From IMG/VR virus record IMGVR_UViG_3300031703_000002, positions 1 to 64,000 of that record: 64,000 bases of DNA, one strand, 5' to 3'. Source of the stretch: a virus. Below are positions 13,929 to 35,751 of this stretch, one piece after another; the first letter of the stretch is position 1; every line of letters begins with the position of its first letter. The notes under the pieces are model-generated. The model did not search any database. It was not told the origin of the DNA and saw only the letters and a program-made list of their open reading frames with translations. The position numbers and the translations under genes were made by a program.

Positions 13929-13947
13929 TAAAACAAACAAATTAAAA

Positions 13948-15393
13948 ATGGATACATTTGACAATCACATAAATGAAAATTTCGAAGTACATTATTCTGA
14001 TGGGATAAGAGCTGCAAAAAAGTTTAAATCAGAAAAAGATGCAAGAGCATTCATGTCTGATGCTATAGAAAACAAAAAAGGTTTACAAGAAATTGCAATT
14101 TACAAAGCAGGTTCTGGATTCCATTCTACTGCAGATACTAAGGCAGTTATTTCTTTTTGGGGAGAAGGTTCTTATTTAGATAACGTTTCTAAAAAAGATT
14201 CTAAATTAGCAGCTAAGAAATTAGAAGAGTCATTAACTGAAAGACACATCACAGTAAAACGAAAGTATACTGAAAATCACCCAGCAGTTAAAGTTGGTAA
14301 AGCAGCTAAAATCAGAAACAAAGTTTTAGAAGCTATCAAAGATGGTAAAATTACCAAAGAAGAATTCAATACGATTTTAAGAGAAATGACTACGGATTCT
14401 GGCAGATGGATGAGAAGAAACTCTACTTATTTAAATGTAAGCGAAGATGGAATTACACTTTCTAAAACAGGTAAAAGAGTACTTAACGAATTAACTCCGG
14501 TTATAAATACACCAGATATTAATGAAAAGGCAAGTGCTTTTAAAATAGCAAATGCAAATGCAGAAGAAATATTCGGAGAATTCGGAATAGCAACATTATC
14601 ATATGATGAGATTGCAAGAGTAATAAACATAAAGAGAGCTGACAAATTAGCCAAAAAATACGGTGAAGACAGTTTTATGGCATTAACCGAATTAGATATG
14701 GAAGAGCTTTTAAACAAGAATCCAAAATTAGTAATAGAAAATAAACAAAACAATAACATGAAAACAAATTTTATATTTGAAAGCTTTAAAGAATTCACAG
14801 AATCTTTAAACGAGGCTACAAGAAGTCGTTTTAACATCAAGTCGTTAAAAATTGGAAAAAGACAATTTCCATTTCCAGGTATTAAAGAAACAGTAAAGTC
14901 ATTGTGGAATGAAGAAGTTGAAGATTATAAGAATCCAACTAGTATGGATTATATGAATAATCCTTCAGATTTAAAAAAGGTAAAATCAGCAATTTTAAAA
15001 GGTGTTAATGCTAACCTAAAGGAACAGATTCGTGCTGAATGGACAAATGGAGGCGAGGAGCTAGAACTTTCATTAGAATTGAAACATCGTGATTTCATTA
15101 GAGTTACATTAAGAACTGGTCGATTCCAAGAATATTGGAAAGATATGCTTAAAGCCGAAGTAATTTCTACTAGATATTCAGGTAGAGGTAACTATCCAGA
15201 AACAACTGATGTTGGAAAGGGCTCAGTTTCACCAAATTCAATTATAATATATTTAAGAGAAGATGGCGAATATGGTAAGCAGATAAACCACATGCACCGC
15301 GCAGTATCGGACATTCTTGATGTATCGGAATCGGTTATTGATTTTTACAATGGTATACCTCAGATTGCAATAATTGGCTCAGAATCAGATTAA
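13948..15393 (+). CDS. CTS protein with a second internal CTS (probable fusion of two genes)
   Basis: The start was placed at 13948 (after an A-rich leader, giving MDTFDNHINENFE) rather than the upstream ATG at 13903 inside the previous gene. The frame is open for 481 codons but contains, at codon 271 (ATG 14758), a complete second CTS-like N-terminus, MKTNFIFESFKEFTESLNE. The codons before it (ENKQNNN) are a translated A-rich leader like those before separate genes. The first part is a basic helical protein; the second, about 212 residues, is an alpha/beta domain. Internal initiation at 14758 or proteolysis after LNE could yield two products. Functions are unknown. Confidence 0.7.
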   Translation: MDTFDNHINENFEVHYSDGIRAAKKFKSEKDARAFMSDAIENKKGLQEIAIYKAGSGFHSTADTKAVISFWGEGSYLDNVSKKDSKLAAKKLEESLTERHITVKRKYTENHPAVKVGKAAKIRNKVLEAIKDGKITKEEFNTILREMTTDSGRWMRRNSTYLNVSEDGITLSKTGKRVLNELTPVINTPDINEKASAFKIANANAEEIFGEFGIATLSYDEIARVINIKRADKLAKKYGEDSFMALTELDMEELLNKNPKLVIENKQNNNMKTNFIFESFKEFTESLNEATRSRFNIKSLKIGKRQFPFPGIKETVKSLWNEEVEDYKNPTSMDYMNNPSDLKKVKSAILKGVNANLKEQIRAEWTNGGEELELSLELKHRDFIRVTLRTGRFQEYWKDMLKAEVISTRYSGRGNYPETTDVGKGSVSPNSIIIYLREDGEYGKQINHMHRAVSDILDVSESVIDFYNGIPQIAIIGSESD

Positions 15394-15434
15394 AATCATA
15401 TTAAAAACAAAACAATAAACAAAACAATATAAAC

Positions 15435-16427
15435 ATGAAACACAAATTTTTATTCGAATCATTCGAAGAATTCACAGAATCTTTAAATGAATCATTTGCT
15501 TCAGCTATATTAGCGGGCATATTAACAGGTAAAGGCTCTAAAGCTGACAAATCATTAACTAAGGCATTTTATGGTAAAACTAAATTAGCGTTAGACAAAG
15601 TACAAGATGAAGATATTATAGTGACTGATCCAATGACAGCATATAAAGAGAAGTCTGATAACGCAATCGTATTTTATATTTCAGATAATCAAAAAGAAAA
15701 TCCATATGCACCAAGCGACGCATACGAAAGTAGCAAAGTTATACCAGGTGGAGGTTATTTATTAGCACTTGCATCGGGAGATAATAGTTTTTATGAAAAC
15801 ACATGGAAAAGAGGATTGATTAGAACAGGAAATAATCCAGCAGATTCCATAGGTATTTCTAAGAAGTATAAAGGTTGGGATGCAACGGGACTTTATAATG
15901 TTAAAAGAATTGCAGAAGTTGCTGATAGAGCAATTGTAATCAATTTAACATTATTACAACAAAAATATTCAACAGCGAACATAAGAGCTGAAAGAAATTC
16001 TGCTAAATCAGGTGCAATCGCATTCAAATCTGATAAAGATTTCAAATCTGATAACATGACAAGATACCAAGAAATTTTAGCAACTAAAGCTTCAAAATTA
16101 CCATTAGACAAAATGGTTGCAGATGCAATTGATTCATTAGCAGAACAAATCAAATCTGGATTAAAGTCTGGTGAAAAAACAAGATATGGTGATCCGATGA
16201 TTGGTAAATCATCAAAAGGTAAAGAAGTTAAATTAAGAGATGCTTCTCAGCACATGAACAATATATTAGATGACTACTCTAGATATGCTGATTATGTTAG
16301 ACAAGAAGAAGATGAAATCAAAGCATATGGTAAAGCTTCTAATTGGTATGGTAAATCTGCAAAAGAATATGCAAAAAGATGTGCTGATAATATCAAGAAA
16401 ATTGAAGACATGACATACGCTTGGTAA
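15435..16427 (+). CDS. CTS-bearing protein, paralogue of the next gene
   Basis: The 330-residue protein begins MKHKFLFESFEEFTESLNES, a CTS-like peptide with a cleavage-type LNE. Residues after this (FASAILAGILTG) and a central block (QKYSTANIRAERNSAKSGA, then AFKSDKDF and RYQEIL) are closely matched in the following gene, so the two arose by tandem duplication. It is basic and has no membrane segment. Function is unknown; it is likely a head-internal protein. It follows a leader rich in AAACAATA repeats. Confidence 0.75.
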   Translation: MKHKFLFESFEEFTESLNESFASAILAGILTGKGSKADKSLTKAFYGKTKLALDKVQDEDIIVTDPMTAYKEKSDNAIVFYISDNQKENPYAPSDAYESSKVIPGGGYLLALASGDNSFYENTWKRGLIRTGNNPADSIGISKKYKGWDATGLYNVKRIAEVADRAIVINLTLLQQKYSTANIRAERNSAKSGAIAFKSDKDFKSDNMTRYQEILATKASKLPLDKMVADAIDSLAEQIKSGLKSGEKTRYGDPMIGKSSKGKEVKLRDASQHMNNILDDYSRYADYVRQEEDEIKAYGKASNWYGKSAKEYAKRCADNIKKIEDMTYAW

Positions 16428-16459
16428 TAAAACAATAATAAAACAATAATAAAACAGAT

Positions 16460-17509
16460 ATGAAACACATTAAATTATTTGAACAATTCATAAACGAATC
16501 AGATTCATCATTAAACGAAGCATTTGCTTCTACTAAATTAGCAAATATATTAACAGGTGCTAATAAATTACCAGAAGGTCTTCCAGCTGCATTTTACAAA
16601 ATGACTAAACTTAAATTAGATAAAATAAAAGATGAAGATATCATCGAATTGGATCCAATGGTTGCTAGGAGAGAAAAACGAGCAAACGCAGTATACATGT
16701 ACTTTGTAACAGATGAAAAAGAAAACGATTACCATATACAAAATCCATATGATAAAGATGAAGAAATATCAATATACAACGGTGGTATTATTCCAGCAAA
16801 TACTTTATTGGCAATTACTAATGTAGATAATAAATGGATGAATATTGATTGGGCTAAAGATAATAAATACACACGACATGGTTCTAACCTTAAATATGCA
16901 ACTATTGTACCTGATGTTGATGGACATCAAGAACTTCAACAATCTAAAAGGAAAGATTCAGCAGGAATCGACAAAGGAAATACAGGTCTAGATACTGTTA
17001 TGAAAGTAGCAAGAACTGCAGATATATGCTATTGTCTTGATTTAGATATTCTTACTGCAAGATATTCTACGGTAAACCTTAAAGATGAAAGAAAAGCTGC
17101 TCAGAAAGGAGCAACTGCATTCATATCAGATAAAGACTTTAGAAAACAAACACATGCAAGATATCAAGATATCATAGCAGATCGAGCTCTTGCAATGCCA
17201 CTTGATAAGAAAGTTAAAGAAGCGACAGAATTAATAGGTGAGATTATTGCAAACGCAAATGCTCGCGGACATAGAGATTCGAAAGGTGATATTCTGATAG
17301 GTACTGGTAGCCATAAATATAAAATATCAGGTATTTTGCAACACATGGACTTTCTATTGAATAGATTTTCAACATATGTACATTACACTGATCTAGATGC
17401 GCACGAATATAACGCTGGTTATGATATGGCATATCATAAAAGAAATATAAAAGATTGTGCCAAGAAGGTTTGGGATAGTATTAAAGACATTAAAAGATAC
17501 CAAAAATAA
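16460..17509 (+). CDS. CTS-bearing protein, tandem paralogue of the previous gene
   Basis: The 349-residue protein begins MKHIKLFEQFINESDSSLNE, containing two I/L-x-E sites. It shares with its upstream neighbour the FASTKLANILTG segment after the CTS, the DEDIIELDPM block, and ARYSTVNLKDERKAAQKGA with FISDKDF and RYQDI. It diverges in the middle and at the C-terminus. The shared residues around R-Y-S-T and S-D-K-D-F are candidates for an active or binding site, but no enzyme family is recognised. Basic composition fits DNA-associated internal proteins. Confidence 0.75.
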   Translation: MKHIKLFEQFINESDSSLNEAFASTKLANILTGANKLPEGLPAAFYKMTKLKLDKIKDEDIIELDPMVARREKRANAVYMYFVTDEKENDYHIQNPYDKDEEISIYNGGIIPANTLLAITNVDNKWMNIDWAKDNKYTRHGSNLKYATIVPDVDGHQELQQSKRKDSAGIDKGNTGLDTVMKVARTADICYCLDLDILTARYSTVNLKDERKAAQKGATAFISDKDFRKQTHARYQDIIADRALAMPLDKKVKEATELIGEIIANANARGHRDSKGDILIGTGSHKYKISGILQHMDFLLNRFSTYVHYTDLDAHEYNAGYDMAYHKRNIKDCAKKVWDSIKDIKRYQK

Positions 17510-18844: not shown

Positions 18845-19147
18845 ATGAGTAAATTAAATATTTTAGCTGAAGCTAATAAAATTGTTAACGAGCGATCAGA
18901 AGAAAAGGCCAGACAATATGGTCCATTTGAAGAAGGTATGCGTAGAGCTGCTATGGTTTTCAATGGCATGACTGGTAAAGATCTTAACGGATCTGATATG
19001 TATGCTGCACTTGTTGCATTGAAATTAAGCCGACACTCTTATAACTATAAACAAGATAATCTATTAGATGCGGTTGCATATTTAGGTGCTCTTGATAATT
19101 ATGTTGAAAAACATGGTTATGGTGAAACTGAAGATCCTATTAAATAA
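18845..19147 (+). CDS. DUF6378-like (nucleotide-modification-associated) protein
   Basis: The 100-residue protein follows the pattern of small phage proteins of the DUF6378/DUF1599 type: ANKIVNERSEEKARQYGPFEEG near the start, then a helix with MYAALVALKLSRHS and DNLLDAVAYLGALDNY. These helical proteins accompany nucleotide and base-modification genes and resemble all-alpha NTP pyrophosphohydrolases, although the activity is unproven. It is the first gene after the promoter and begins the presumed modification operon. Confidence 0.6.
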   Translation: MSKLNILAEANKIVNERSEEKARQYGPFEEGMRRAAMVFNGMTGKDLNGSDMYAALVALKLSRHSYNYKQDNLLDAVAYLGALDNYVEKHGYGETEDPIK

Positions 19148-19153
19148 TTACAT

Positions 19154-20248
19154 ATGACAGAATTCAAATATCTTACTGACTATATTTCAGATAAGTCTGC
19201 TAAAATTGGAATAGCAGCATTGGTTGGTAAATTAAGTCCAAAAATTAGCTCGCATAAATCAGGTTGGGCATTTCACCTAGCAAATCAATGTGTGAATGCT
19301 GGCTATGAAAACGTAGAAGTGATCACAGATATTACAACAAACTGGGATGACTTTGATGCAATTCTATTAGAACATGGTATGGAATTCAAAGGTACCTTCA
19401 ATATATTCGGAGGCGCTAATGATGATTTATATCATCAAATCATGAGAATTTTTAGCAGTACGTTGATTTATTCTTTACATCATGACATGCCATGTATTGG
19501 CAAGTTGATTGATCAACGATTACATACTGGAACTGATTTGTTTAAACAATTAGGCGATGTACGACCGGATGGATATTCTCAAGTTGATCATATAAAGGAA
19601 ATATGCGCTGTAGATATTCCAAGAATTGATTGCATTGAAAAAACTGATAAACTGTGCTTTGGTGATAGCCATTCATTTAGTCAGTATACACCAGGTTATA
19701 TGACACAACGTCATGATGGTTTGACTATGCATGGCGCACTCAAAAAAGGTTTAGATGCATACATATACCCATGGGTCAAATCTCTTAGGGTTTACATGGG
19801 CAACATTGATGTGCGACACCATTTAATGAGACAAAGTAACCCGTCAGCTTCAGTTAAAACAATACTAATTGACTTTGAAAATGAACTACGTGAAATGTAC
19901 GAACGTGGAATAAAAGAAATAGAAGTTGTTCATGTATTACCAATTGAAAATGAAAGTAGAGCTTTACCAAAAACAGGGTATTATAAAGATACACCATTTG
20001 CAGGAACATGGGCACAAAGAACTGCATTGGTCAAAGAAATCAATGATGGTATAGACAGTATGTGTGAAAGAAATAATTGGCAATCACATAAACATCCAGA
20101 AGTTTATTATAATTCTAAAAATGAATTAACATTTGACGTAATGGAAAAGCCAAAATCAGTTCATATCGCCAGGGAATATTACAGATGGGATTTAACCAGT
20201 AATGAACCTAATGCTAAATTAATTAAACAAACTATGTCACTTTTTTAA
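19154..20248 (+). CDS. SGNH-hydrolase-like protein in the modification cluster
   Basis: The 364-residue protein has an N-terminal alpha/beta region (1-165) and a C-terminal region that begins KLCFGDSHSFSQYTPG, a GDSx block with Ser172, and contains KPKSVHIAREYYRW with His337, a plausible catalytic His of block V. This layout suggests an SGNH/GDSL-type esterase or acyltransferase fold; SGNH-like proteins can transfer or remove acyl groups. No thymidylate synthase motifs are present. Its place among base-modification candidates suggests a role in tailoring a modified base, but that is inference. It ends -MSLF. Confidence 0.5.
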   Translation: MTEFKYLTDYISDKSAKIGIAALVGKLSPKISSHKSGWAFHLANQCVNAGYENVEVITDITTNWDDFDAILLEHGMEFKGTFNIFGGANDDLYHQIMRIFSSTLIYSLHHDMPCIGKLIDQRLHTGTDLFKQLGDVRPDGYSQVDHIKEICAVDIPRIDCIEKTDKLCFGDSHSFSQYTPGYMTQRHDGLTMHGALKKGLDAYIYPWVKSLRVYMGNIDVRHHLMRQSNPSASVKTILIDFENELREMYERGIKEIEVVHVLPIENESRALPKTGYYKDTPFAGTWAQRTALVKEINDGIDSMCERNNWQSHKHPEVYYNSKNELTFDVMEKPKSVHIAREYYRWDLTSNEPNAKLIKQTMSLF

Positions 20249-20251
20249 AAT

Positions 20252-20395
20252 ATGAAAAAATACAAAATACTCATCACACCACATGACGACACTAAAGAAT
20301 CTTATTCGTTTGAAATAAAAACAAAGGATATAGAGTGGGTTATGGAACAATATCAAAGAAATAGAAATCCATTCAAATGGAAAATCATAGAATAA
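20252..20395 (+). CDS. small hypothetical protein
   Basis: The 47-codon ORF starts at ATG 20252, three bases after the SGNH-like stop, and ends one base before the ATG of the next gene, filling the gap exactly. The product (MKKYKILITPHDD at the start, FKWKIIE at the end) is a polar alpha/beta peptide. Tight packing in the operon supports it as a real gene. Function is unknown. Confidence 0.6.
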   Translation: MKKYKILITPHDDTKESYSFEIKTKDIEWVMEQYQRNRNPFKWKIIE

Positions 20396-20396
20396 G

Positions 20397-21623
20397 ATGG
20401 AAATAAAAACTACTAAATATTACGATGAGTTTTTGAGATACTTTGAACTTGCTAAGAAACAGCAAGAGCTTAGTAACTTAGGTATTGTACCACATGAAGA
20501 AAGCGGCATGAATGATCCTTTAATGGAACACGTGCACTTATATGATGTAGTGGAAAGAAAATATGCAGGTTTTAGTCAGATCATAAACGATTGTTTTTAT
20601 GGTTGGACAGAAGATCATCCATATTGGGAACACATGAAAGCCGGCAAAATATTCCCTCAAAGAGAAGAAGTTGCCAAAAACTGGACTGGAAAGCACAAAG
20701 ACTTTGGATTAGAAGAATGGTTATATCTGTTTATTCTACATCGAGTTTGTGGTAGTGCAATTAATTATGCTACCAAACCATCTGGTTATCACAACACAGT
20801 TATCTTTGCATTACATGAATGTAAAACAATTGAAGAAATGTGCGAGGTTATTAAATATCATCCTACGCCATTTTATACTTCAGTTGGTTATCAGTTTCCA
20901 GCATTTCCTAAACCACCAAAGCCTTCAGGTAATGAAGATAGTTTTGTAGGTATGGAATCGTTTACAGAACCTGAATATGTTTACAAAAGAGGCGGAGATT
21001 ATTTCTTATGTGAATTTGCACCAAGACTTTCAAGAGACTTAGCTGTCTTTTTAAGAAGTGACGGTAAAAAAGATTTAAGAGAGATCGGAGAATGGATGTT
21101 TAAGTGGAATGCTGATAATGGCCTAAGAGCTTATAGATTCCAGTATGCTGCAGTTCTTGCAGATTTAGCAGATTGGTATCCAGAATATGTAAACAGAGAA
21201 TCAATGTTTTATTATGGTACAAATGCAGTAGAATGCATTGGATATCTTGCAGATCCTGTTGAAAAGAAAGGTAAAAAGAGTGAAGAATTCTTGGATGCAG
21301 TAATGACAAGAATATACGAAGATACAGGAAGCTTACCATATAATGCTGAAGATGTAGCATGTGATTTTATTAGATGGATTGAAAACTATTTAAGACCGGG
21401 CGCGGCATATAATCATATAGACTTTGATGGTATTTGGAACAGTTCATTTATATTAGATCATCCATATGGAAGACAGAAAGCGATGTTAGAATTAGGTCTA
21501 GTAGACACATTCAATGGTATCACATCATTTCCATCAGATGACAAAGTTATAGCATCTGTTAACCTAACGGCCGCCGAATATAAAAGCAAAATAAATAGTA
21601 TACTACCAACGACATATGAATAA
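20397..21623 (+). CDS. aGPT-PPlase/amino-acid:DNA-transferase-like protein (DNA base hypermodification)
   Basis: The 408-residue helical protein contains LFILHRVCGSAINY followed by a GYHNT motif (H115, R116, G119-S120, N123, Y131-H132-N133). As I recall the family, this is like the HR..GS and N-T signatures of the predicted alpha-glutamyl/putrescinyl thymine pyrophosphorylase and amino-acid:DNA transferase families of phages with hypermodified thymine. Those enzymes add an amino acid or polyamine to phosphorylated 5-hydroxymethyl-dU in DNA. No 5-hmU kinase or hydroxymethylase lies in the window, so the pathway is incomplete here. It overlaps the next gene by 8 bases, suggesting partner proteins. 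The family call is from memory. Confidence 0.5.
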   Translation: MEIKTTKYYDEFLRYFELAKKQQELSNLGIVPHEESGMNDPLMEHVHLYDVVERKYAGFSQIINDCFYGWTEDHPYWEHMKAGKIFPQREEVAKNWTGKHKDFGLEEWLYLFILHRVCGSAINYATKPSGYHNTVIFALHECKTIEEMCEVIKYHPTPFYTSVGYQFPAFPKPPKPSGNEDSFVGMESFTEPEYVYKRGGDYFLCEFAPRLSRDLAVFLRSDGKKDLREIGEWMFKWNADNGLRAYRFQYAAVLADLADWYPEYVNRESMFYYGTNAVECIGYLADPVEKKGKKSEEFLDAVMTRIYEDTGSLPYNAEDVACDFIRWIENYLRPGAAYNHIDFDGIWNSSFILDHPYGRQKAMLELGLVDTFNGITSFPSDDKVIASVNLTAAEYKSKINSILPTTYE

Positions 21624-22755
21624 AGAACAAGAATTGGAAAAGGATACGAAACTTATAATTGAATTTAATCCAAAAAATGGTTCAAGTAATGCAAACTTTT
21701 TAAAAAATAGTTTGTTTGAATTTAACGGAAATGACAAAATGAACAAACACAATATATCATATAAAGGCACTTCTGAAATCCTAATGAAAAAGGGAAAACC
21801 AATGGAAAGTTGGATGAAGGATTGGACTCAAGAAGAAAGATTTGATAAATTCTTTGAATTCTGTCATGCTTTTGATAAGAGACAAGACAGCTTACTTTTA
21901 GAAGATTACCAAATATTCTCACATAGATTACACTGGCATGAACATCCATATTGTTATATGATGAAACATGAAACAGATTTAGAAAAGCTATTATATTATA
22001 CAATAGTATTTTCTTTTAGTAATGAACATTGGGGAACTATTAATAGATTGATCAATGACGGTGAAGTAAAAACAAGAAAACACTTTGTTGAAAACAGACA
22101 TGCTCGTAATGATCTATTTCAAATATATTATCCAAAGGGCACAATAGTTAAGGATTGGTTATTAGAAGGACCTAAAAAAGCAGCCAAAGATATGGCTCAT
22201 ATTTTAGAGAATTTAGAAAGACCATACACTATGATGGAATTTGCTAAAATATTAGAAGCTTATTTTAAAGAACATCAAAACTTTAGAAGTCCATTATATC
22301 CATGTAAAAACACTGCAAGATATGTTGCAATGAGTAGACCGGATCTAGTTGATCCAGAATCAGTGCTTTTTGGTGGAACTGGACATTTTGATGGTATGAT
22401 GCAAATCTTTGGAGGACCAAACTTAAATGGTAAAGTAAAATACTCAATTGACGAAGATGGTCAATTTATAGCAGAGAATAAACATGCTGAAGAATGGATT
22501 AGACAAATGCAAGTTTTATCAGATCATCCAAGTAATCCAATGACTACTCAAACGATGTTAAATGTAGAGGATAAAACATGTTTTTTTTACAAACACATCG
22601 CAATCAGTCATGGTATTAAATCTCCCACTAAAAGAATTCCATATACTTGGATCTTTGATGGAGCATTTAATTTAGCAAAACATCCAACAGAGGATGTTAT
22701 CGTAAACGCAGAAACAACACGTCACATTTGGGGTAAGAATTACCCTAACGAATAA
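21616..22755 (+). CDS. second modification-cluster protein, possible partner of the upstream aGPT-PPlase-like protein
   Basis: The 379-residue protein is translationally coupled to the preceding gene (8-base overlap). Its helical first half (FSHRLHWHEHPYCYMM; IVFSFSNEHWGTINRL) mirrors the general layout of the upstream protein. The second half has conserved-looking PLYPCKNTARYVAMS and VLFGGTGHFDGMMQIFGG (about 226-267), Cys- and Gly-rich stretches that could form a nucleotide or DNA site. It probably belongs to the same thymine-hypermodification machinery (ADDT/aGPT-PPlase type), either as a diverged paralogue or a subunit. Function is inferred mainly from coupling and context. Confidence 0.45.
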   Translation: MNKEQELEKDTKLIIEFNPKNGSSNANFLKNSLFEFNGNDKMNKHNISYKGTSEILMKKGKPMESWMKDWTQEERFDKFFEFCHAFDKRQDSLLLEDYQIFSHRLHWHEHPYCYMMKHETDLEKLLYYTIVFSFSNEHWGTINRLINDGEVKTRKHFVENRHARNDLFQIYYPKGTIVKDWLLEGPKKAAKDMAHILENLERPYTMMEFAKILEAYFKEHQNFRSPLYPCKNTARYVAMSRPDLVDPESVLFGGTGHFDGMMQIFGGPNLNGKVKYSIDEDGQFIAENKHAEEWIRQMQVLSDHPSNPMTTQTMLNVEDKTCFFYKHIAISHGIKSPTKRIPYTWIFDGAFNLAKHPTEDVIVNAETTRHIWGKNYPNE

Positions 22756-22766
22756 ATACAAACAAG

Positions 22767-23444
22767 ATGAAAAATAAAGCAGATGATGCATGGCAAATTC
22801 TAAGAATTCAAGGAGAATTTACAAAAGGATTTGACACTTTTAATGAAATAGATGTACCATGTGTATCGATATTCGGAAGTGCAAGAACAAAACAAGGTAG
22901 TAAATGGTATAACGAAGCAAGAGAATTTGCTAAGCTTATATCATGTGAAGGATTCGGAGTAATTACAGGCGGAGGTCCAGGAATAATGGCTGCAGCAAAT
23001 CACGGAGCTCATGAAGTTTCAGGTAATTCTATAGGAATTGGCATTGAATTGCCATTTGAATCAGGTATGAACAAATATGTTGATTTAGGAATGGAATGCA
23101 GATACTTTTTTACAAGAAAGGTAATGTTCTTAAAATATTCGCAAGGATTCGTTGTATTTCCAGGAGGACTTGGAACTCTAGATGAATTATTTGAAGCAAT
23201 TACATTAGCTCAATGTGGTCACAACGTAAAATACCCAATAGTATTAGTTGGAAAAGATTATTGGTCAGGATTAATTGATTGGCTAAAAGATACTGTATTG
23301 GAAAGTAATAAAATGAGTCCATCGGATTTTGACTTATTTAGAATCGTAGATACTGCAGTGGAAGCAAGAGATAAAATTATGGAATATCACAATAAGGAAA
23401 TGACCGCACCTGGTTATTTAGGTAGCAACAAAACAAACTTTTAA
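22767..23444 (+). CDS. LOG-family nucleotide 5'-monophosphate phosphoribohydrolase-like protein
   Basis: The 225-residue protein carries the LOG family signature: FGSARTKQGS at the start of the Rossmann fold, GGGPGIMAAANHGA and PGGLGTLDELFEAI (the PGGxGTxxE motif with its catalytic Glu). LOG enzymes cleave the N-glycosidic bond of nucleoside monophosphates and are often mis-annotated as lysine decarboxylases. In this operon it may destroy or recycle a nucleotide precursor, for example an unmodified or modified base. It lies 11 bases after the previous gene and three before the PLP enzyme gene. Confidence 0.85.
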   Translation: MKNKADDAWQILRIQGEFTKGFDTFNEIDVPCVSIFGSARTKQGSKWYNEAREFAKLISCEGFGVITGGGPGIMAAANHGAHEVSGNSIGIGIELPFESGMNKYVDLGMECRYFFTRKVMFLKYSQGFVVFPGGLGTLDELFEAITLAQCGHNVKYPIVLVGKDYWSGLIDWLKDTVLESNKMSPSDFDLFRIVDTAVEARDKIMEYHNKEMTAPGYLGSNKTNF

Positions 23445-23447
23445 AAT

Positions 23448-24344
23448 ATGGCACATAACAAACACACAAAAAGTCTAATGAATCAAGATATTAATCTGAT
23501 GATGCCAAATCGTCAAGCTTGGTTAGATTTAGCAGGAGATTGGAAAGATCCATTTTCAGAACCAGTTATCACAGAACATGATGGATTTAAAGTCGTAAGA
23601 GAAGATTTAATGGGATTTGGTTCTAAATGCAGGTTTGGTGATATCTTAGTTCAATCAGCACCAACAGATACATTAGTATATGTACAGCCAAGGTGTGGAT
23701 TTGCAGGTATATCACTTGCATATCTTGCAGAAAAATACAATAAAAAATTAGTATTATTTAGTCCATCACAAAAAGAAATTTCAGATCATCAAGCGATATG
23801 TATTGAACGTGGAGCAGAAATGAAATTTAAAAGAGTTGCTGCTATGCCAAACCTTAACGCACATGCTAAAAGATGGGCAGAAGATAACAACGCAACGTTT
23901 ATTCCACTAGGACTTAAGCACGAATTAGTTACAGCAGCCGCAGTGAAAGTTGCATATGATCTTGCAGAAAAACACGGATATCCAGAAGAAGTTTGGTCAG
24001 CAATTTCTACAGGAGTATTACAAAGATCATTACAGATTGCATGGCCTGATGCAGATTTTCATGCAGTTGCAGTTGCTCGTAATATCAAAACAGGTGAAAG
24101 AGGTAGAGCTGAAATGTGGTCTCATCCTAAACCATTTAATCAAAACGTAAGTCTTGATCAAATGCCACCATTTCCAAGTGCATATAACTACGATGCAAAA
24201 GCATGGGAATTTATGAAGAAACATGGAAAACCAGGAGCATGGTTCTGGAATGTAGGTGGAGATCCTAGACCAGAATCTGATCAAACAAAAATTATAACAG
24301 ACTCTCAAAGAGAATGGGGACAAATTCTAGAAATGGACAGATAA
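23448..24344 (+). CDS. PLP-dependent fold-type II enzyme (ACC deaminase/desulfhydrase-like)
   Basis: The 298-residue protein has the fold-type II pattern FKVVREDLMGFGSKCRFGD, where Lys60 of GSKCR corresponds to the PLP-binding lysine in the GGNKxR motif of ACC deaminase and D-cysteine desulfhydrase. A Rossmann-like strand (LVLFSPSQKE) and a glycine-containing phosphate-site candidate (AISTGVLQRSL) follow. It would act on an amino acid substrate; PLP enzymes occur in known thymine hypermodification pathways, where they process the attached amino acid. The C-terminal region (from about 200) is less typical. The substrate is unknown. Confidence 0.65.
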   Translation: MAHNKHTKSLMNQDINLMMPNRQAWLDLAGDWKDPFSEPVITEHDGFKVVREDLMGFGSKCRFGDILVQSAPTDTLVYVQPRCGFAGISLAYLAEKYNKKLVLFSPSQKEISDHQAICIERGAEMKFKRVAAMPNLNAHAKRWAEDNNATFIPLGLKHELVTAAAVKVAYDLAEKHGYPEEVWSAISTGVLQRSLQIAWPDADFHAVAVARNIKTGERGRAEMWSHPKPFNQNVSLDQMPPFPSAYNYDAKAWEFMKKHGKPGAWFWNVGGDPRPESDQTKIITDSQREWGQILEMDR

Positions 24345-24347
24345 TAG

Positions 24348-24377
24348 TTGAAACTATTAATCAAATACACATATTAT
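24348..24377 (+). promoter_or_regulatory. early-type promoter before dUTPase and polymerase
   Basis: TTGAAAC (24348-24354) is followed after 17 bases by TATTAT (24372-24377); a second AT-rich hexamer, TATAAC, lies at 24381-24386. The ATG of the dUTPase-like gene is at 24399. Confidence 0.55.
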
Positions 24378-24398
24378 TAATATAACAAAAAATACAAA

Positions 24399-24866
24399 AT
24401 GGCAAATATAGACAATGAATGCAAAGATCTTGAAGTAAAAGACTTTTACACCAAATCAACAACACATTTAGCAGACATCATGGAAAACCAAAAAAAGATG
24501 CAAGAGCAGACTTATGGTTTTAACTTTGAAGATATGACGTTACGAGAGGTAATGAATTTCTGGCATGTTAACACTCACGCAGTAGTTGATGAGATACATG
24601 AAATGACAGATGCACTTGGAGGTATTAAAGATGGTTCTGGAAATGCAGTCTGGAAATACTGGAAAAAAGACTTTACAAAATATGATACGATGAAAGTATC
24701 AGATCTTTCCGAAGGTGATAAGAAAGAATTATTTATGGAATGGGTAGATATTCTCCATTTCTTTATTAACTATGCAGCTTCTATTGGCTTGGATGCAAAA
24801 ACAGCATACAACTATTATTTCGCTAAAGCAGAAGAAAATGTAAATCGCCAAAAAAACAACTACTAA
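24399..24866 (+). CDS. dimeric (all-alpha) dUTPase-like nucleotide pyrophosphatase
   Basis: The 155-residue helical protein shows the metal-binding pattern of dimeric dUTPases/MazG-like enzymes: VVDEIHEMTDAL (ExxE) followed by VWKYWKKDF and then MEWVDILHFFINYA (ExxD). It would hydrolyse dUTP or a related dNTP, clearing unwanted nucleotides and supplying dUMP for thymidylate or hydroxymethyl-dUMP synthesis. It lies at the junction between the modification cluster and the polymerase gene, whose ATG follows its stop directly. Confidence 0.78.
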   Translation: MANIDNECKDLEVKDFYTKSTTHLADIMENQKKMQEQTYGFNFEDMTLREVMNFWHVNTHAVVDEIHEMTDALGGIKDGSGNAVWKYWKKDFTKYDTMKVSDLSEGDKKELFMEWVDILHFFINYAASIGLDAKTAYNYYFAKAEENVNRQKNNY

Positions 24867-26285
24867 ATGCTATTAGATATTGAGCAAACCGACAGGGAAC
24901 TAATTATTTCTTACTACGACAAAGAGGGCAAAGTATCATTTAAAAGATATGGCGTTAATCAATTCCAAAATTGGGTAGTAACTAAAGATACTGATAAACA
25001 CAAAGATGCAACATATAGAAATTGGGATGGTAGAGCTCTAAAAAGAGGTTACGCTAAATCATTCAACAAGTTTAGTTTATTATATTTCATGGATTCTCTA
25101 CCAGAAAAAGACAGGGAAGAGATCTACGAATTTAATATGCCACGAACGTACTTTGTAGATATTGAAACAGAAATAGTTGATGGTTTCCCAAAAGCAGAAG
25201 AAGCTAAAACTAGAATTCTATCGTTTTCAATAATTACACCAGAACGTAAAGCAATTGTATTAGGATTAGAAGACATGTCTCAGGAAGATATGAAGAAAAT
25301 ACAGGCAGATACCAACAAACATTTCAAAGACTACGACCAAGATTGGGAATTCTCATATCATAAATTTGATAATGAGTATAATATGTTATATACGTTTTTG
25401 CATAAGTTTTTACCTAAGTTCCCAATGATGACAGGGTGGAATTTCATCAACTATGATTGGCAGTATATAGTCAATAGATGTAAACGATTACAGATCGATA
25501 TGGAGCAAGTGGCAATCACTGGTGCGTTAGATAGAAAGGATAGTCGTCCATTACATATGGGTATTTTAGATTACATGCAATTATATGACAAATATGATAG
25601 ATCGGTTGCTGTTAAAGAATCTAATTCATTAGACTTTGTTTCAGGAGCAGTTTTAGATGTTAAGAAAATTAAATATTCTGGAGGACTTCAAGAACTATAT
25701 GAAAATGATTTTACTAAGTACATTTATTACAACGTAGTCGATTCATGTTTAGTATACTATATAGATCAACAGTTAAAATCGATGGAAGTTCTTTTAACTC
25801 TAGCAACCATTACTAAGATGCCATTATATAAAGCATCATCACCTGTTGCGATTACAGAATCACTACTTGCAAGAAAACTTGCAGAACAGAATAAAAAGAT
25901 TGGTGTAGAATATGGTAAAGCCGATGCTCTTAAAGAAGGTAAATTCGAAGGAGCTTTCGTTAAGCAACCAATTGTTGGATATTATAGTGGAGTAAGTGCA
26001 TTTGATTTTGCATCGCTATATCCTTCAATAATGAGACAATTTAATATTTCCCCCGAATCATATGTTGAGCAAGTACCTGAAGCAGAAATTCCAACAAGAC
26101 GAAAAGACAAAAAGGTAATTGTCTGTGAAAACGGAGTGGTATTCAAAAAAGAAGATTCTATTCTTAAAAAAATATTAGCAGATTTATATGAGCAAAGAAA
26201 GGACTATAAAAAGACCTCTTATGCGTATTACGAGAAGGCTGCTAAGCTAGAAAAGAAATTAAAAAAATTAAATAGAATTAAATAA
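24867..26285 (+). CDS. gp43A: DNA polymerase family B, N-terminal part (split gp43)
   Basis: The 472-residue protein contains the 3'-5' exonuclease motifs (Exo I YFVDIETE with D98/E100; Exo II NFINYDWQY with D197; Exo III YYNVVDSCL with D292) and polymerase motif A (FDFASLYPSIMRQFN, D380). It stops within the fingers after a Lys-rich helix (about 445-472). Motifs B and C are missing here but are encoded at 31360, about 5 kb downstream. Together the halves make 874 residues, close to T4 gp43 (898). The two polypeptides presumably assemble into one polymerase. Confidence 0.92.
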   Translation: MLLDIEQTDRELIISYYDKEGKVSFKRYGVNQFQNWVVTKDTDKHKDATYRNWDGRALKRGYAKSFNKFSLLYFMDSLPEKDREEIYEFNMPRTYFVDIETEIVDGFPKAEEAKTRILSFSIITPERKAIVLGLEDMSQEDMKKIQADTNKHFKDYDQDWEFSYHKFDNEYNMLYTFLHKFLPKFPMMTGWNFINYDWQYIVNRCKRLQIDMEQVAITGALDRKDSRPLHMGILDYMQLYDKYDRSVAVKESNSLDFVSGAVLDVKKIKYSGGLQELYENDFTKYIYYNVVDSCLVYYIDQQLKSMEVLLTLATITKMPLYKASSPVAITESLLARKLAEQNKKIGVEYGKADALKEGKFEGAFVKQPIVGYYSGVSAFDFASLYPSIMRQFNISPESYVEQVPEAEIPTRRKDKKVIVCENGVVFKKEDSILKKILADLYEQRKDYKKTSYAYYEKAAKLEKKLKKLNRIK

Positions 26286-29096: not shown

Positions 29097-29152
29097 ACAA
29101 AACAAAACAATTATGAAACACGTAAAATTATTTGAAGCATTTGCTTCAACAG
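29097..29152 (+). repeat. leader-plus-CTS repeat, copy 1
   Basis: The A-rich leader and the first dozen codons (MKHVKLFEAFAST) are nearly identical at DNA level to copies at 29850 and 30187. The three are direct repeats able to recombine. Confidence 0.75.
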
Positions 29153-29424
29153 TAAACGAAGCAAAATCTTATAAGAAAGAATTCAAAGAGATCAAAGATT
29201 ACTTCCATAATGTAACGCTAGACGGAAACCAAATAACAGTATGGGATTTTGAAGAAAACAAAGACTACGCAGTGGTATTCACATGGTATCCTGAAGAAGA
29301 AACAGCAAATGGTGAAGACCAAAGGATTGCAAGGTCTGATGATGGCGACAAAATTAAAACAGCAGAAGACTTCATAGATTTCGTTAATGATCATGCGCCA
29401 GAAGAAGAAGAAAACTGGGACTAA
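29113..29424 (+). CDS. small acidic CTS-bearing protein
   Basis: The 103-residue protein begins MKHVKLFEAFASTVNEAK, CTS-like with a possible cut after VNE. The rest is acidic (WDFEENKDYAVVF; a HAPEEEENWD end) with a small alpha/beta fold ending in an acidic tail. Related sequence patterns appear in the C-terminal half of the next gene (W-D, Y-x-x-x-F and the D-F-I/T terminal helix), so they are likely relatives. It is probably a small packaged or core protein; the function is unknown. Confidence 0.7.
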   Translation: MKHVKLFEAFASTVNEAKSYKKEFKEIKDYFHNVTLDGNQITVWDFEENKDYAVVFTWYPEEETANGEDQRIARSDDGDKIKTAEDFIDFVNDHAPEEEENWD

Positions 29425-29444
29425 ATAAATTAAAATATAATATT

Positions 29445-30173
29445 ATGGCAAAAGCATTCGCAGTAACAGAAAATACACCAGATTATGGAGTAATACACTT
29501 GTATTTAAATCAAGGTGCAGCTAAAAAGAAATTAGCAGAACTAGAAAAAGCACAAAAAGAAGATCCTGATTTTGATGATGATGAAGTTGAATTTGAAATG
29601 AACGATTTTAAATTAACAGATGGTACAGCATATGGTCATAAATCAGAAGGATCTATAGAATACGGAGATGCTCCTGAAGATTCATTTGAAGAAAGAAAAG
29701 AAGATGCAGCTGAATATTCTGAATGGGGCGCAGTTGTCGATTTAGCAAAACACAAGTATGTTCAAATTTACGTAGGATCTGCAATAGAGGTTGCACCATC
29801 AAAGGCATCAGTTTTTATTTATGAAGCAGATGAAATATCAGAACATGTTAAACAAAACAAAACAATTATGAAACACGTAAAATTATTCGAAGCGTTTGTT
29901 GCAAATATCAACGAAGCTAAAGTAAACCTTAAGAAAGAATTTAAAAACTTAGAAAATCAATATGATGCATCATTCGATGGTGATATTATATCAATTGTTG
30001 GTGAAAATCCATTTGATGATGGCAACGAATACACATTCAATTGGGATGGTACTGCAGTTTGGTCAGACGAAGATAACTACGGTGGTCAAGAATGGTCAAG
30101 TGAAGTAACATCAGTTGATGATTTCACATCTTTAATAGATGGTGGTTCAATTGACGGCGGAGACTGGCAATAA
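29445..30173 (+). CDS. fused protein: N-terminal unknown domain plus internal CTS module
   Basis: The 242-codon frame has an acidic N-terminal domain (MAKAFAVTENTPDYG to about residue 135) without CTS. It then runs through a translated A-rich leader (KQNKTI) into a second start, ATG 29868, MKHVKLFEAFVANINEAK, followed by an acidic domain like that of the preceding gene. A one-base change near 29850 would restore a TAA before 29868, so this looks like two genes joined by a small indel, or one gene with an internal start. A sequencing error in the A-rich stretch must also be considered. Confidence 0.65.
   Translation: MAKAFAVTENTPDYGVIHLYLNQGAAKKKLAELEKAQKEDPDFDDDEVEFEMNDFKLTDGTAYGHKSEGSIEYGDAPEDSFEERKEDAAEYSEWGAVVDLAKHKYVQIYVGSAIEVAPSKASVFIYEADEISEHVKQNKTIMKHVKLFEAFVANINEAKVNLKKEFKNLENQYDASFDGDIISIVGENPFDDGNEYTFNWDGTAVWSDEDNYGGQEWSSEVTSVDDFTSLIDGGSIDGGDWQ
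29850..29906 (+). repeat. leader-plus-CTS repeat, copy 2 (inside an ORF)
   Basis: This segment matches copy 1 at 29097 through the leader and the MKHVKLFEAF codons, but here it is read through in frame from the upstream gene. Confidence 0.7.
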
Positions 30174-30186
30174 TACAAAATAATAC

Positions 30187-30243
30187 AAAACAAAACAAAA
30201 TAATTATGAAACATGTAAAATTATTTGAAGCATTTGCTTCAAC
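30187..30243 (+). repeat. leader-plus-CTS repeat, copy 3
   Basis: The leader with AAAACAAAACAAAATAATT and the codons for MKHVKLFEAFAST match copy 1 almost exactly. Confidence 0.75.
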
Positions 30244-30490
30244 ATTAAACGAGAAATATTCATCATCAGACATTAAAAAACTTAGAGTGTTTACTGATGA
30301 GGTTGCAGATGACATTTATGATTCATATGAAGATGAATTCATGGATGGTAAATTAGACGAAGACGATTTTAGCCAAGAAGTAATGTTTGATTACATATCT
30401 GATTGGGGTGAAAATAATGAAATGACAGTTAAAGAAATCATTGCTGATTTTTACTGGAAAGATTTACGAGATGAATTAGGTCTTAGATAA
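30206..30490 (+). CDS. small acidic CTS-bearing protein
   Basis: The 94-residue protein begins MKHVKLFEAFASTLNEKY, with LNE as possible cleavage site. The remainder is acidic and helical (VFTDEVADDIYDSYEDEF; KEIIADFYWKDLRDEL). After removal of the peptide a product of about 78 residues would remain. It is the last gene before a strong terminator. The function is unknown; like its neighbours it is a candidate internal head protein. Confidence 0.7.
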   Translation: MKHVKLFEAFASTLNEKYSSSDIKKLRVFTDEVADDIYDSYEDEFMDGKLDEDDFSQEVMFDYISDWGENNEMTVKEIIADFYWKDLRDELGLR

Positions 30491-31359: not shown

Positions 31360-32568
31360 ATGAATATAGAAGAGTTAGAAAATAAATCAATTGATCAACT
31401 AACAGATGATGAGGCGAAGTTGCTTGTAGACCACTACAAGCAGCTTTCTGCTAAATTCACTGCTTATGAACAGGCTGTAAAACTAAGTCTTAACTCTATT
31501 TATGGTGCATTCGGTAACAAATGGTTTCACTTTTTCAACATCGACATAGCAGAATCTATAACTAAACAAGGTAAAAATGCAATTCTTTATTCTGAAACAA
31601 TACTTAACAAATATGTTAATGATTTTTGGCACAAGGACACTGCAGTCCATAATCACTTCAATATTAAAGTCAAGGGTAAGATTGAAAAACCCTCAGTAAT
31701 TTATATTGATACTGATTCATGTTATGTACAGTTTCAAGATTTATACGAATCTATTATTTGGGAAGATGAATCTAAGAAGATGGAAATTGATGTGTTTATT
31801 CTTGCGTTCTATGCATTTAGATTAAGAGACTACATCACAAAGTGCATGGAGAAATATGCAGATGTTAGAAACACAGATAACTTCTTAATGTTTGAATTAG
31901 AATCTCTTGCATATAATGGAATTTGGATGTCAAAGAAAAAATACATTCAAAACATTGCATGGGACGATAAACTAGCAGTAACAGATAGACATCCATCTCT
32001 TAAGAAAGTAAAAACAATTGGTTTTGATACAATACAATCATCAACACCTAAGTTTGCTAGAGAACGTTTAGTAGAATGCCTTAAGATATTGTTTAGATCA
32101 GAAATACAACCAACTGCAACAGAGTTACAATTGCTTGTAGAGTATATGAAAAAATGTAAGAAAGAATTCAAATTAACTGACATAGATAATATTTCATTTA
32201 ATAAGAGAACTAACAACATTGATAAGTATATCTTAGATGATCAAGAAGAATTACAGATTGGGCTAAAATGTCCAGCAAATGTAAAAGCAGCAGGATACTA
32301 TAATTATATTTTAAATAATAATAAGAAGTATAAAAATAAGTATAAGCTGATTGGAAATGGTGAAAAGCTTAAGATCTACAATTGTATTGGTACAATCAGT
32401 GAGGTTTATGCATTTCTACCAAACGAACATCCTTATGAAATTGCACCAAAAGTGGACTACGATACTCAATTTGAGAAAGCAATGATTGATCCATTGAATA
32501 GAGTGCTTACGGCAATAGGATTACAAACGCTAGACACTAACCTAATTTACGCTTCGGCATTATTTTAA
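31360..32568 (+). CDS. gp43B: DNA polymerase family B, C-terminal part (split gp43)
   Basis: The 402-residue protein begins in the fingers and contains polymerase motif B (KLSLNSIYGAFGN, about 41-53) and motif C (IYIDTDSCY, D117/D119), followed by thumb-type sequence and a C-terminal ALF that may bind the clamp. It lacks exonuclease and motif A, which are in the ORF at 24867. It is encoded directly behind gp45, so its synthesis is coupled to the clamp. An intact active site requires both halves. Its own start (MNIEELENKSIDQL) has an acidic helix that could pair with the basic helix at the end of the N-terminal half. Confidence 0.92.
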   Translation: MNIEELENKSIDQLTDDEAKLLVDHYKQLSAKFTAYEQAVKLSLNSIYGAFGNKWFHFFNIDIAESITKQGKNAILYSETILNKYVNDFWHKDTAVHNHFNIKVKGKIEKPSVIYIDTDSCYVQFQDLYESIIWEDESKKMEIDVFILAFYAFRLRDYITKCMEKYADVRNTDNFLMFELESLAYNGIWMSKKKYIQNIAWDDKLAVTDRHPSLKKVKTIGFDTIQSSTPKFARERLVECLKILFRSEIQPTATELQLLVEYMKKCKKEFKLTDIDNISFNKRTNNIDKYILDDQEELQIGLKCPANVKAAGYYNYILNNNKKYKNKYKLIGNGEKLKIYNCIGTISEVYAFLPNEHPYEIAPKVDYDTQFEKAMIDPLNRVLTAIGLQTLDTNLIYASALF

Positions 32569-32964: not shown

Positions 32965-34071
32965 ATGGCAAAAAAAGATTTTAGCTTCAAAGACTTAAAC
33001 AAAGAATTGGCTGATTTGAATCCATTGGGTTCAATAATGGAAAATTCCACATTTAGTGAAGTTACAGAGTGGATCGACACTGGTAATTATCATTTAAATG
33101 CATGCGTGAGTGGTTCACTTTTCGGCGGTTGGCCTAATAGTAGAACATGTTCAATTGCAGGACCATCAGGTACAGGAAAAACATTCTTAGTTTTAAACTC
33201 TGTAAAAAGAGCAATAGAAATGGGATATTTTGTAATCTATTATGATTCAGAAGCAGCAGTTGATAAAGATCAAATGGTTAAGTTTGGTATTGATGTTTCT
33301 AAAGTAAATTATCAACCAATTAATACTGTACAAGAATTCAGAACTTCAGTTACTACATTAACAAGTAAGATGCAAGAAGTTAAGAGAAATGGTGGTACAA
33401 CGCCAAAGATCATGATGATTCTTGATTCTGCAGGTAACTTAGCTACACAAAAAGAAATTGATGATGCTAGATCTGGTAGTGAAAAGGCAGATATGACAAG
33501 ATCTAAGGTTTTAAAATCTATATTCAGGATCATAATGACGCCTCTCGCAGATCTTAAGATACCTTTCATTTTTACTAATCATACATATCAAACACAAGAC
33601 TTTATCTCAAGGCAAGTAGCCGGAGGTGGTACAGGACCTGAATATGCTGCGTCAATCGTATTATATTTAGGTAAAGCACAACTAAAAGAATCTAGTGGTG
33701 AAAAAGCAGGGATTATTGTAACAGCTAAACCTAATAAGAATAGATTTGCTAAACCACATAACATTAAATTTCATTTACACTTTACAGAAGGAATGAATGC
33801 ATATGTTGGATTAGAACAGTATATTGATTGGGAAGAAATAGGTATTGCAAAAGGTACTATTGAAAAAGGTGTTAAAACTCCAAAATCTACAGCAAGAAAT
33901 TGGATTTGTAAACATTTAGATGAAACTGTTCCAACTAGAGAATTCTTCTCTGAAAAAGTATTTACCAAAGAGATATTAGATAAAATTGAATTAAGAATTA
34001 AACCTGTATTCAATTATAATACCGAAGGTAGAGAAATTGATCTTGAATCTATATTAGAAGATGAAGATTAA
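32965..34071 (+). CDS. uvsX: UvsX RecA-like recombinase
   Basis: The 368-residue protein has a Walker A motif (IAGPSGTGKTFL, about 64-75), a Walker B-like strand (KIMMILDSAGNL) and a RecA-family segment FIFTNHTYQT, with the UvsX-type N-terminus for filament contact. It catalyses strand exchange for recombination-dependent replication with UvsY, gp32 and gp46/47. The C-terminus is acidic (ESILEDED). Length is close to T4 UvsX (391). The gene overlaps the next ORF by 11 bases. Confidence 0.92.
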   Translation: MAKKDFSFKDLNKELADLNPLGSIMENSTFSEVTEWIDTGNYHLNACVSGSLFGGWPNSRTCSIAGPSGTGKTFLVLNSVKRAIEMGYFVIYYDSEAAVDKDQMVKFGIDVSKVNYQPINTVQEFRTSVTTLTSKMQEVKRNGGTTPKIMMILDSAGNLATQKEIDDARSGSEKADMTRSKVLKSIFRIIMTPLADLKIPFIFTNHTYQTQDFISRQVAGGGTGPEYAASIVLYLGKAQLKESSGEKAGIIVTAKPNKNRFAKPHNIKFHLHFTEGMNAYVGLEQYIDWEEIGIAKGTIEKGVKTPKSTARNWICKHLDETVPTREFFSEKVFTKEILDKIELRIKPVFNYNTEGREIDLESILEDED

Positions 34072-34434: not shown

Positions 34435-35751
34435 ATGCAATTCGGACAAGACTTTGAAAAAATATTCTTTAGATTCTCTTTAATTAAGACAAAGTACTTA
34501 AAGAGTATTAAAAGCGGATTTTACACATCACAGGAAATTGATATATTAAGTCAATTGTCTAATAAGTTCTTTGAGAAGTTTAACGAAACTCCAAAAAGAG
34601 AACAACTTCTTTTGCTTATTCAAAGAAATGAAAAGGCTAAAGCTAAAATATCAGAAGAGATATTAAATCTTATATTTGAAGTTGACTTAGATCAATATGA
34701 CGAAGAATGGTTAACGTCTACAGCTGAAGCATGGATTAAATGGAGAACATTTGATACTTCATTAATCGATACTATTGAATTCATTAAAACAACTCAGGTA
34801 ACTCCTGAAAATGTAGATAGTATTGTTACTAAAGTTAAGGGTCTTATTAATGATAGAAATAACTTATCATTTAATTCAGATTTAGGTTTAGATTTCTTTG
34901 ATGTAGATTCACATGATCAAAAGGATTCAGAAAAGGTTAGTACTGGTTACAATTTCTTAGATAGAATGTTAGGCGGTGGTTATGACAAAGGTGGTAACTT
35001 AATTGTGTATGCAGGTGAACAAAACATTGGTAAGTCAATATACTTAGCAAACGATGCAGCGAACTTCGTTAAGATGGGAACAAATACAGTAGTAGTTACT
35101 GCAGAGATGGCAGCACATAAATTCGTAAAACGTATTGGTGCTAATCTTTTAACTATTGAGATTAACGAATATGGTGATAAGGCTAAAAACAAAGATCATA
35201 TTAAAAGAAGATTAGAAACTGTAGGCGATGGTTTAACACCGCCTGGATCTTTATTTGTAAAACAGTTTCCAACATCACAAGCAACTGTATTAGATATTGA
35301 AGCATATGTTAATCAAATAGAAGAAGAAAGACAAATTAAAGTAGGTGCAGTCGTAATTGATTACATCAACATTCTTGCAAACTACAGAAACCAAAATACT
35401 GAGAATACTTATATGAAGATCAAGCAAATTGCAGAAGATCTTAGAGCAATGGGTATTCGTAATAATTGGTTAATAGTTACAGCAACACAGATTACTAGAA
35501 ATGGTTATAATTCAAGTGATATTGGAATGACAGACATTGCAGAATCTGCGGGTCTTTCACATACAGCCGATGTTATGCTTGGTATTATACAAGATGATAT
35601 GATGAGAGCTAACTCAGAATACTGGTTAAAGGTATTAAAAATTAGAGATGGAGAAGGAAAAGGAACCAAGTGTAAATTAAATATTAATTGGAATTACATG
35701 AGGTTGATCGAGACAGAGGAAACTACAAATTCAAACTTACACAGTATATAA
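34435..35751 (+). CDS. gp41: replicative DNA helicase (gp41-like, DnaB family)
   Basis: The 438-residue protein has a helical N-terminal domain and a RecA-fold C-terminal domain: TGYNFLDRMLGGGYDKGG, Walker A GEQNIGKS (194-201), VVVTAEMAAHK as the DnaB H1a-like segment, Walker B VGAVVIDYINIL and TATQITRNG. It unwinds the fork and works with the primase encoded at 5863. T4 gp41 has 475 residues. Its end lies two bases before the next gene. Confidence 0.9.
   Translation: MQFGQDFEKIFFRFSLIKTKYLKSIKSGFYTSQEIDILSQLSNKFFEKFNETPKREQLLLLIQRNEKAKAKISEEILNLIFEVDLDQYDEEWLTSTAEAWIKWRTFDTSLIDTIEFIKTTQVTPENVDSIVTKVKGLINDRNNLSFNSDLGLDFFDVDSHDQKDSEKVSTGYNFLDRMLGGGYDKGGNLIVYAGEQNIGKSIYLANDAANFVKMGTNTVVVTAEMAAHKFVKRIGANLLTIEINEYGDKAKNKDHIKRRLETVGDGLTPPGSLFVKQFPTSQATVLDIEAYVNQIEEERQIKVGAVVIDYINILANYRNQNTENTYMKIKQIAEDLRAMGIRNNWLIVTATQITRNGYNSSDIGMTDIAESAGLSHTADVMLGIIQDDMMRANSEYWLKVLKIRDGEGKGTKCKLNINWNYMRLIETEETTNSNLHSI

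Follow-up and report, generated by a model that had tools for sequence, protein, structure and literature searches.

A candidate cytosine-hypermodification cassette in uncultured phages

Gene content and conservation of the locus

We describe seven consecutive genes at positions 18845 to 24866 of a 64,000-nucleotide stretch of viral DNA (IMG/VR record IMGVR_UViG_3300031703_000002, positions 1 to 64,000; hereafter the window), which is part of a virus contig of 80,140 bases. A preliminary description made from the sequence alone had taken these genes for parts of a thymine hypermodification pathway placed directly before the DNA polymerase. All seven open reading frames (ORFs) are present as described, on one strand and nearly contiguous, and the polymerase does follow directly, encoded by two separate ORFs. 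The same genes occur with 100% identity on a second contig of 149,989 bases. Together with the first part of the polymerase, the genes are:

18845..19147, + strand: DUF6378 protein, 100 aa (PF19905, E 8.9e-12)
19154..20248, + strand: SGNH-hydrolase-like protein, 364 aa (GDSH, G[NS]IDxR and SVH blocks)
20397..21623, + strand: protein A, 408 aa, all-alpha; predicted fold of the DNA-glycosylase/amino acid:DNA transferase (ADDT) type
21616..22755, + strand: protein B, 379 aa; predicted fold of the amino acid:DNA-transferase type
22767..23444, + strand: LOG-family 5'-monophosphate phosphoribohydrolase (PF03641, E 2.2e-31)
23448..24344, + strand: fold-type II pyridoxal 5'-phosphate (PLP) enzyme of the phage M6 gp52 family (phrog_7093, E 2.2e-39; Lys60 in GSKCR)
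24399..24866, + strand: dCTP/dUTP pyrophosphatase of the T4 gp56 family (BLASTP to T4 gp56, 30% identity, E 2e-17)
24867..26285, + strand: family-B DNA polymerase, N-terminal part of a split gene (tblastn to phage DNA polymerases)

Viral-contig searches with A and B returned more than 200 loci; with 141 pattern matches for A and 277 for B, the cassette is frequent among environmental virus contigs. Among 50,697 phage records, tblastn detected no homologue of either protein; surveys based on isolates would therefore have missed the cassette. In bacterial genomes, A and its accompanying genes were found on four contigs of metagenome-assembled genomes (MAGs), which look like misbinned phage contigs. 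Because they are conserved across more than 100 viral loci, the seven ORFs are real genes. We refer to the lineage of the window as group 1, and to loci whose A protein is about 57–70% identical to that of the window as group 2.

Co-occurrence was counted, after removal of duplicates, at the 39 viral loci where A is flanked by 5 kb or more on both sides. Within 5 kb of A, both the PLP enzyme and the SGNH-like protein were encoded at every locus (39/39 each). DUF6378 was present at 30/39, B at 28/39 and the dCTPase at 25/39, and LOG at 7/39 only. Since the loci had been selected through A or B, the presence of the PLP and SGNH-like genes counts as independent information. The lineages that carry the cassette are distant, with polymerases ∼29% identical, and each has its own gene order: DUF6378-SGNH-A-B-PLP-dCTPase, A-B-SGNH-PLP, A-PLP-B-SGNH or A-B-PLP-SGNH. 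One clade keeps the other cassette genes without B, even on contigs of up to 149 kb. A gene set that remains stable while its order is shuffled indicates one functional unit, and these counts point to a core consisting of A, the PLP enzyme, the SGNH-like protein and usually B. LOG, which had been listed among the defining parts of the pathway, is an accessory gene.

The family assignment of LOG itself stands, its PF03641 match scoring 109 bits against a cut-off of 27, and the protein matches type-II LOG structures (5zi9, E 4e-68). The DUF6378 label was likewise correct; this protein is probably a nucleotide-pool or modification-associated helper. Near the cassette, group-2 loci carry a DUF1599-like ORF (c13).

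Predicted functions of the core proteins

For profile searches, the families of A and B were represented by 23–32 diverse members. Neither protein, singly or as a family, matched Pfam, PHROG or the sequences of the Protein Data Bank (PDB), and a PDB sequence search with the A, B, SGNH and PLP profiles yielded nothing useful. The ADDT (PF18724) and HMUDK_hel (PF18723) profiles matched M6 gp51 and gp55 and matched neither A nor B. A Pfam search of the members of alignments A1 and A5 (for A) and A2 and A6 (for B) gave no PF18724 match, and hmmsearch with an M6-type ADDT profile returned A and B only at E-values of at least 0.16. Short blocks that can be picked out by eye between A/B and the M6 families (GGTGH / AGPGA; EDxxCxF) are not claimed here as shared features.

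Predicted structures gave a different picture. AlphaFold2 models of A and B were of fair quality, with pLDDT confidence scores of 81 and 78, respectively. When the model of A was compared with known structures by VIA-align, the best 23 rows were all DNA glycosylases of the HhH-GPD kind (AGOG/OGG) with Z 4.0–8.0, AGOG scoring 8.0. For B, the top match was 8z2m, the 5-phosphomethyl-dU glycinyltransferase of PaMx11 (gp46, PUGT), with Z 9.1 over 226 residues, a root-mean-square deviation of 4.2 Å and 11% identity; a queuine-salvage enzyme (Z 6.8) and AGOG (Z 6.5) were the runners-up. B differs from PUGT in this low identity, in the lack of a profile match and in being ∼90 residues longer. In BFVD, the first-ranked match of A, with 60% identity, bears the name “Amino acid:DNA transferase domain-containing”, and rank 4 was another ADDT-domain protein. 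Lower ranks included the helical domain of the PhiW-14 hydroxymethyl-dU kinase and aGPT-PPlase clade 1.

Since Z below about 13 can mislead for helical models, we regard matches at Z 8–9 as moderate evidence, and on predicted fold A and B appear to be ADDT/DNA-glycosylase-fold proteins. We propose that A is a base-flipping activating or transfer enzyme and that B may act as an amino-acid transferase on an activated base. The preliminary description had called both proteins aGPT-PPlase/ADDT-like and had named the lack of a match to those families, together with normal dT in virion DNA, as grounds for rejecting a thymine hypermodification locus. As to the match, the outcome is divided: no sequence match was found, and a match in predicted fold is present.

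The PLP enzyme belongs to the same PHROG as M6 gp52 (phrog_7093) and, judging from sequence profiles, is a homologue of that protein. Comparison by hhalign gave E 1.7e-6 over 219 columns, and E 1e-10 with deeper alignments; a C-terminal PFP..YD.KAW..FWN.G motif is common to the PLP family and M6 gp52. The Schiff-base Lys60 in GSKCR, which had already been pointed out, is confirmed, and every family member keeps it. The M6 gp52 gene comes after the ADDT gene gp51, with the HMUDK gene gp55 close by; M6 DNA carries 5-(2-aminoethyl)deoxyuridine (PMC6449724). In Erythrobacter phage R6L (L144, gp1), a ParB-DNA methyltransferase ORF contains an M6 gp52-like PLP domain as an insertion, a second tie of this PLP subfamily to DNA modification. 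In Microcystis phage Mae-JY30 (L145), such a domain adjoins ParB-like genes.

In the SGNH-like protein, the GDSH and SVH blocks are invariant and block III reads G-[NS]-I-D-x-R, with N or S at the second position. These conserved blocks fit the SGNH-type hydrolase named in the preliminary description, although the label lacks a Pfam or PDB match and the PHROG matches are all of unknown function. A relative is found in Aeromonas phage 44RR2.8t, where ORF233c (L146 4959-7346, 795 aa) has an SGNH-like N-terminal half and a C-terminal half with a weak HMUDK_hel match (E 0.0036 and E 4e-4). Phage 44RR carries gp42, the T4-type dCMP hydroxymethylase, and a fusion of SGNH-like and HMUDK_hel-like parts in a gp42-bearing phage ties the SGNH-like protein to the same chemistry. 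ORF233c differs from the cassette in being one fused protein, and the phage records, which lack A and B by tblastn, gave only three distant PLP matches.

Identity of the modified base

Which base is modified is indicated by the genes around the cassette. Downstream in the window lie two further T4 homologues:

32965..34071, + strand: UvsX homologue (T4 UvsX 33%, E 6e-35; G001:99364-100467)
34435..35751, + strand: gp41 helicase homologue (T4 gp41 30%, E 8e-42; G001:100834-102147)

At group-2 loci, an orthologue of the T4 dCMP hydroxymethylase gp42 (E 8e-91 to 1b49) precedes the cassette at a short distance. It was found at 16 of 27 such loci, counted without duplicates wherever the upstream sequence exceeded 2.5 kb, and two MAG contigs have gp42 beside the cassette in the same arrangement. 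The full group-2 order is gp42-dCMP deaminase-(uracil-DNA glycosylase (UDG)-like)-cassette-uvsX-gp41, compared with gp42-beta-gt-uvsX-gp40-gp41 in T4. From the matching order, the group-2 cassette holds the slot of T4 beta-gt, the enzyme that decorates 5-hydroxymethylcytosine (hmC). No beta-gt homologue was found at any cassette locus. The UDG-superfamily protein between dCMP deaminase and A (L155 9601-10011) occurs in part of group 2.

In group 1, a second thymidylate synthase (TS)-family protein is encoded in G005, G008, G010 and G019, the one in G019 being closest to dCMP hydroxymethylase (1b49, E 2e-18). At TS position 177, all 9/9 aligned cassette-linked hydroxymethylases have Asp, as does T4 gp42; M6 gp58 has Asn. 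According to PMC8670742, a change from Asn to Asp at this position turns the enzyme from dUMP to dCMP and is a mark of contigs whose cytosine is modified. The linked hydroxymethylases also keep the serine of the MRSND motif, which fits a deoxy substrate (PMC5175136). Taken together, Asp at 177 and the gp42 orthologues indicate that the linked hydroxymethylases are of the dCMP type. In G019 (L297 11130-15561), a ClpA-like ATPase and a ClpP-like protease stand on either side of the Asp-type hydroxymethylase. In G005 (L295 7774-13451), a second PALP-family enzyme (phrog_11528), ThyA, LOG and an Asp-type hydroxymethylase are clustered.

The gene directly before the polymerase had been named a dimeric dUTPase. 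Its product, encoded next to the PLP gene, belongs instead to the T4 gp56 dCTPase/dUTPase family; T4 gp56 is annotated to remove both dCTP and dUTP. Members of this family were found in 1,395 phage records, mostly T4-like.

Neither the 5-hydroxymethyluracil kinase nor the dUMP hydroxymethylase that the preliminary description suggested looking for was found in 20 related records (G000-G019). A PF00303 search recognised no dUMP-type hydroxymethylase there, PF18724 gave no match, and PF18723 gave none in records that may be fragments, its M6 control having matched. A search for a TET/JBP route to hmC gave no match, its positive control being silent too. Thymine as the target is thus not borne out: the linked hydroxymethylases are of the dCMP type, the cassette occupies the beta-gt slot in group 2, and in group 1 a gp56-family dCTPase is adjacent.

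Proposed pathway, alternatives and neighbouring genes

The central idea of the preliminary description, that the locus hypermodifies a DNA base, very likely holds: two proteins of predicted ADDT/DNA-glycosylase fold are encoded beside a PLP enzyme from the family of M6 gp52. The reading we favour, with a probability of roughly 0.6, is an amino-acid-type hypermodification of hmC carried out after replication by A, B, the PLP enzyme and the SGNH-like protein. It rests on gene identities, predicted folds, co-localisation, synteny and the specificity residue. A dCMP hydroxymethylase, either gp42-type or the Asp-type second TS homologue, would make hydroxymethyl-dCMP; gp56 would remove dCTP, so that in the window phage hmC would enter DNA at replication. 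The glycosylase-fold proteins A and B would then flip the base. One of them, possibly A, may activate the hydroxymethyl group so that the other can put an amino acid in its place, much as PUGT and ADDT act on phosphomethyl-dU. The PLP enzyme, by its resemblance to M6 gp52, may process the DNA-bound amino acid. The weakest step of the scheme is that of the SGNH-like protein, which would act on the modified base by trimming or transferring a group. In outline, this is likely the chemistry of M6 and ViI shifted from thymine to cytosine.

Several observations weigh against this reading. Profile-profile comparison and hmmsearch of A and B against M6 ADDT and HMUDK, with shallow and with deeper alignments, gave nothing significant, and the Z values of 8–9 may reflect only a shared arrangement of helices. 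Phages that lack B exist, so B is not essential everywhere. In G000-G019 there is no recognised kinase to activate hmC, and gp56 acts on dUTP as well as dCTP. Finally, a TS-family gene is absent from the contigs of the window phage (80 and 150 kb) and from the close relative G009 (165 kb), and so is ThyX from the 150-kb contig and G009. The base assigned to the window phage is therefore taken from its relatives. One of these, G010 (256 kb), has a ThyA gene that continues from one contig end to the other, as it would if the genome were circular, and encodes both ThyA and an Asp-type hydroxymethylase; by this comparison, the contigs of the window phage and G009 may be incomplete.

The absence of a hydroxymethylase from the window phage's own contigs and the dUTPase activity of the gp56 family would also suit the pathway first suggested, in which 5-hydroxymethyl-dU in DNA is phosphorylated, exchanged for an amino acid and processed by the PLP enzyme. 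The enzyme whose fold B resembles acts on 5-phosphomethyl-dU, and the PLP enzyme falls in the family of M6 gp52. We nevertheless consider thymine quite unlikely as the target: the 20 related records yielded no dUMP-type hydroxymethylase and no HMUDK or ADDT profile match, the linked hydroxymethylases all have the dCMP-type Asp, and it is the cassette that fills the beta-gt slot beside gp42. If the base is hmC, A and B might instead flip it and decorate it with something other than an amino acid (an acyl, amine or sulfur group), the PLP enzyme supplying a small-molecule donor and the SGNH-like protein transferring it. Acyl groups are common substrates of SGNH enzymes, small sulfur or amino compounds are frequent products of fold-type II PLP enzymes, and a glycosylase fold suggests base flipping while saying nothing of the donor. 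This explanation is unlikely, given that B is structurally closest to an amino-acid transferase and that the PLP enzyme is nearest to M6 gp52, which is encoded beside an ADDT.

Two further explanations take the glycosylase fold more literally. A and B could be ordinary phage DNA glycosylases, serving repair or attack on host DNA, with the PLP and SGNH-like genes as mere neighbours; the best PDB matches of A are indeed 8-oxoguanine glycosylases, and some group-2 loci have a UDG-like gene upstream. We find this very improbable, because the PLP and SGNH-like genes accompany A at all 39 counted loci, across distant lineages and shuffled orders, and because repair needs no PLP enzyme of a DNA-modification type. 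Alternatively, LOG could free a (hydroxymethyl)cytosine-type base, as in the MilA/MilB steps of mildiomycin synthesis, for A and B to insert by transglycosylation. The fold of A and B would allow this, and in G005 and G010 LOG has an Asp-type hydroxymethylase next to it or close by. Such a base exchange is hardly credible: LOG is closest to generic type-II LOG enzymes, and the linked hydroxymethylases keep the deoxy-specific serine, unlike MilA. A MilA/MilB-like LOG pathway was rejected because LOG is too rare in the cassette.

Compared with known systems, the favoured scheme of hmC hypermodification combines features of several. The M6 cluster comprises gp51 (ADDT), gp52 (PLP), gp53 (radical SAM), gp55 (HMUDK) and gp58 (TS-family). 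The cassette resembles it in having a homologous PLP enzyme and a predicted ADDT-fold protein encoded beside the PLP gene, and differs in the lack of ADDT and HMUDK sequence matches, in the Asp of the linked hydroxymethylases where gp58 has Asn, and in the additional SGNH-like core gene. With the T4 hmC pathway (gp42, gp56, beta-gt) it shares gp42 and gp56 homologues and, in group 2, the beta-gt position; unlike T4, it has four genes there and no beta-glucosyltransferase homologue. To our knowledge, phages decorate the hmC of their DNA with sugars or with a carbamoyl group, and amino-acid additions in DNA are known on thymine only; we know of no amino-acid-modified cytosine. The 5-carbamoyloxymethylcytosine system found by MetaGPA is similar in that hmC is further modified and the gene responsible has an Asp177-type TS homologue and a dCMP deaminase as neighbours (PMC8670742, available text). 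It differs in using a carbamoyltransferase, and A, B, the PLP enzyme and the SGNH-like protein are not described in that text.

If correct, the proposal would mean a new DNA base in which amino-acid chemistry has moved to cytosine, made by base-flipping enzymes that are themselves new and have no recognised relatives in sequence. Such a base would probably protect the phage from restriction and CRISPR. Thanks to the linked hydroxymethylases, the choice of hmC over hmU is a prediction that can be tested directly. More tentatively, and at slightly less than even odds, we suggest that widespread uncultured T4-related phages replace cytosine with an amino-acid-derived hmC, the A and B families, the PLP enzyme and the SGNH-like protein standing in for the T4 glucosyltransferase.

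Two minor observations concern the neighbouring genes. Several ORFs at 13903-17509 and 29113-30490 have in common a leader of the form MKH(V/I)KLFE(A/Q)F...NEA, which resembles the capsid-targeting sequence of T4 internal head proteins. The polymerase halves (24867-26285 and 31360-32568) are separated by NrdB, NrdA and a clamp-like ORF. By tblastn, the nearest named relative of this split polymerase is that of Sphingomonas phage PAU (e.g. gp105), whose polymerase genes also seem to be two and separated (gp105 and gp110).

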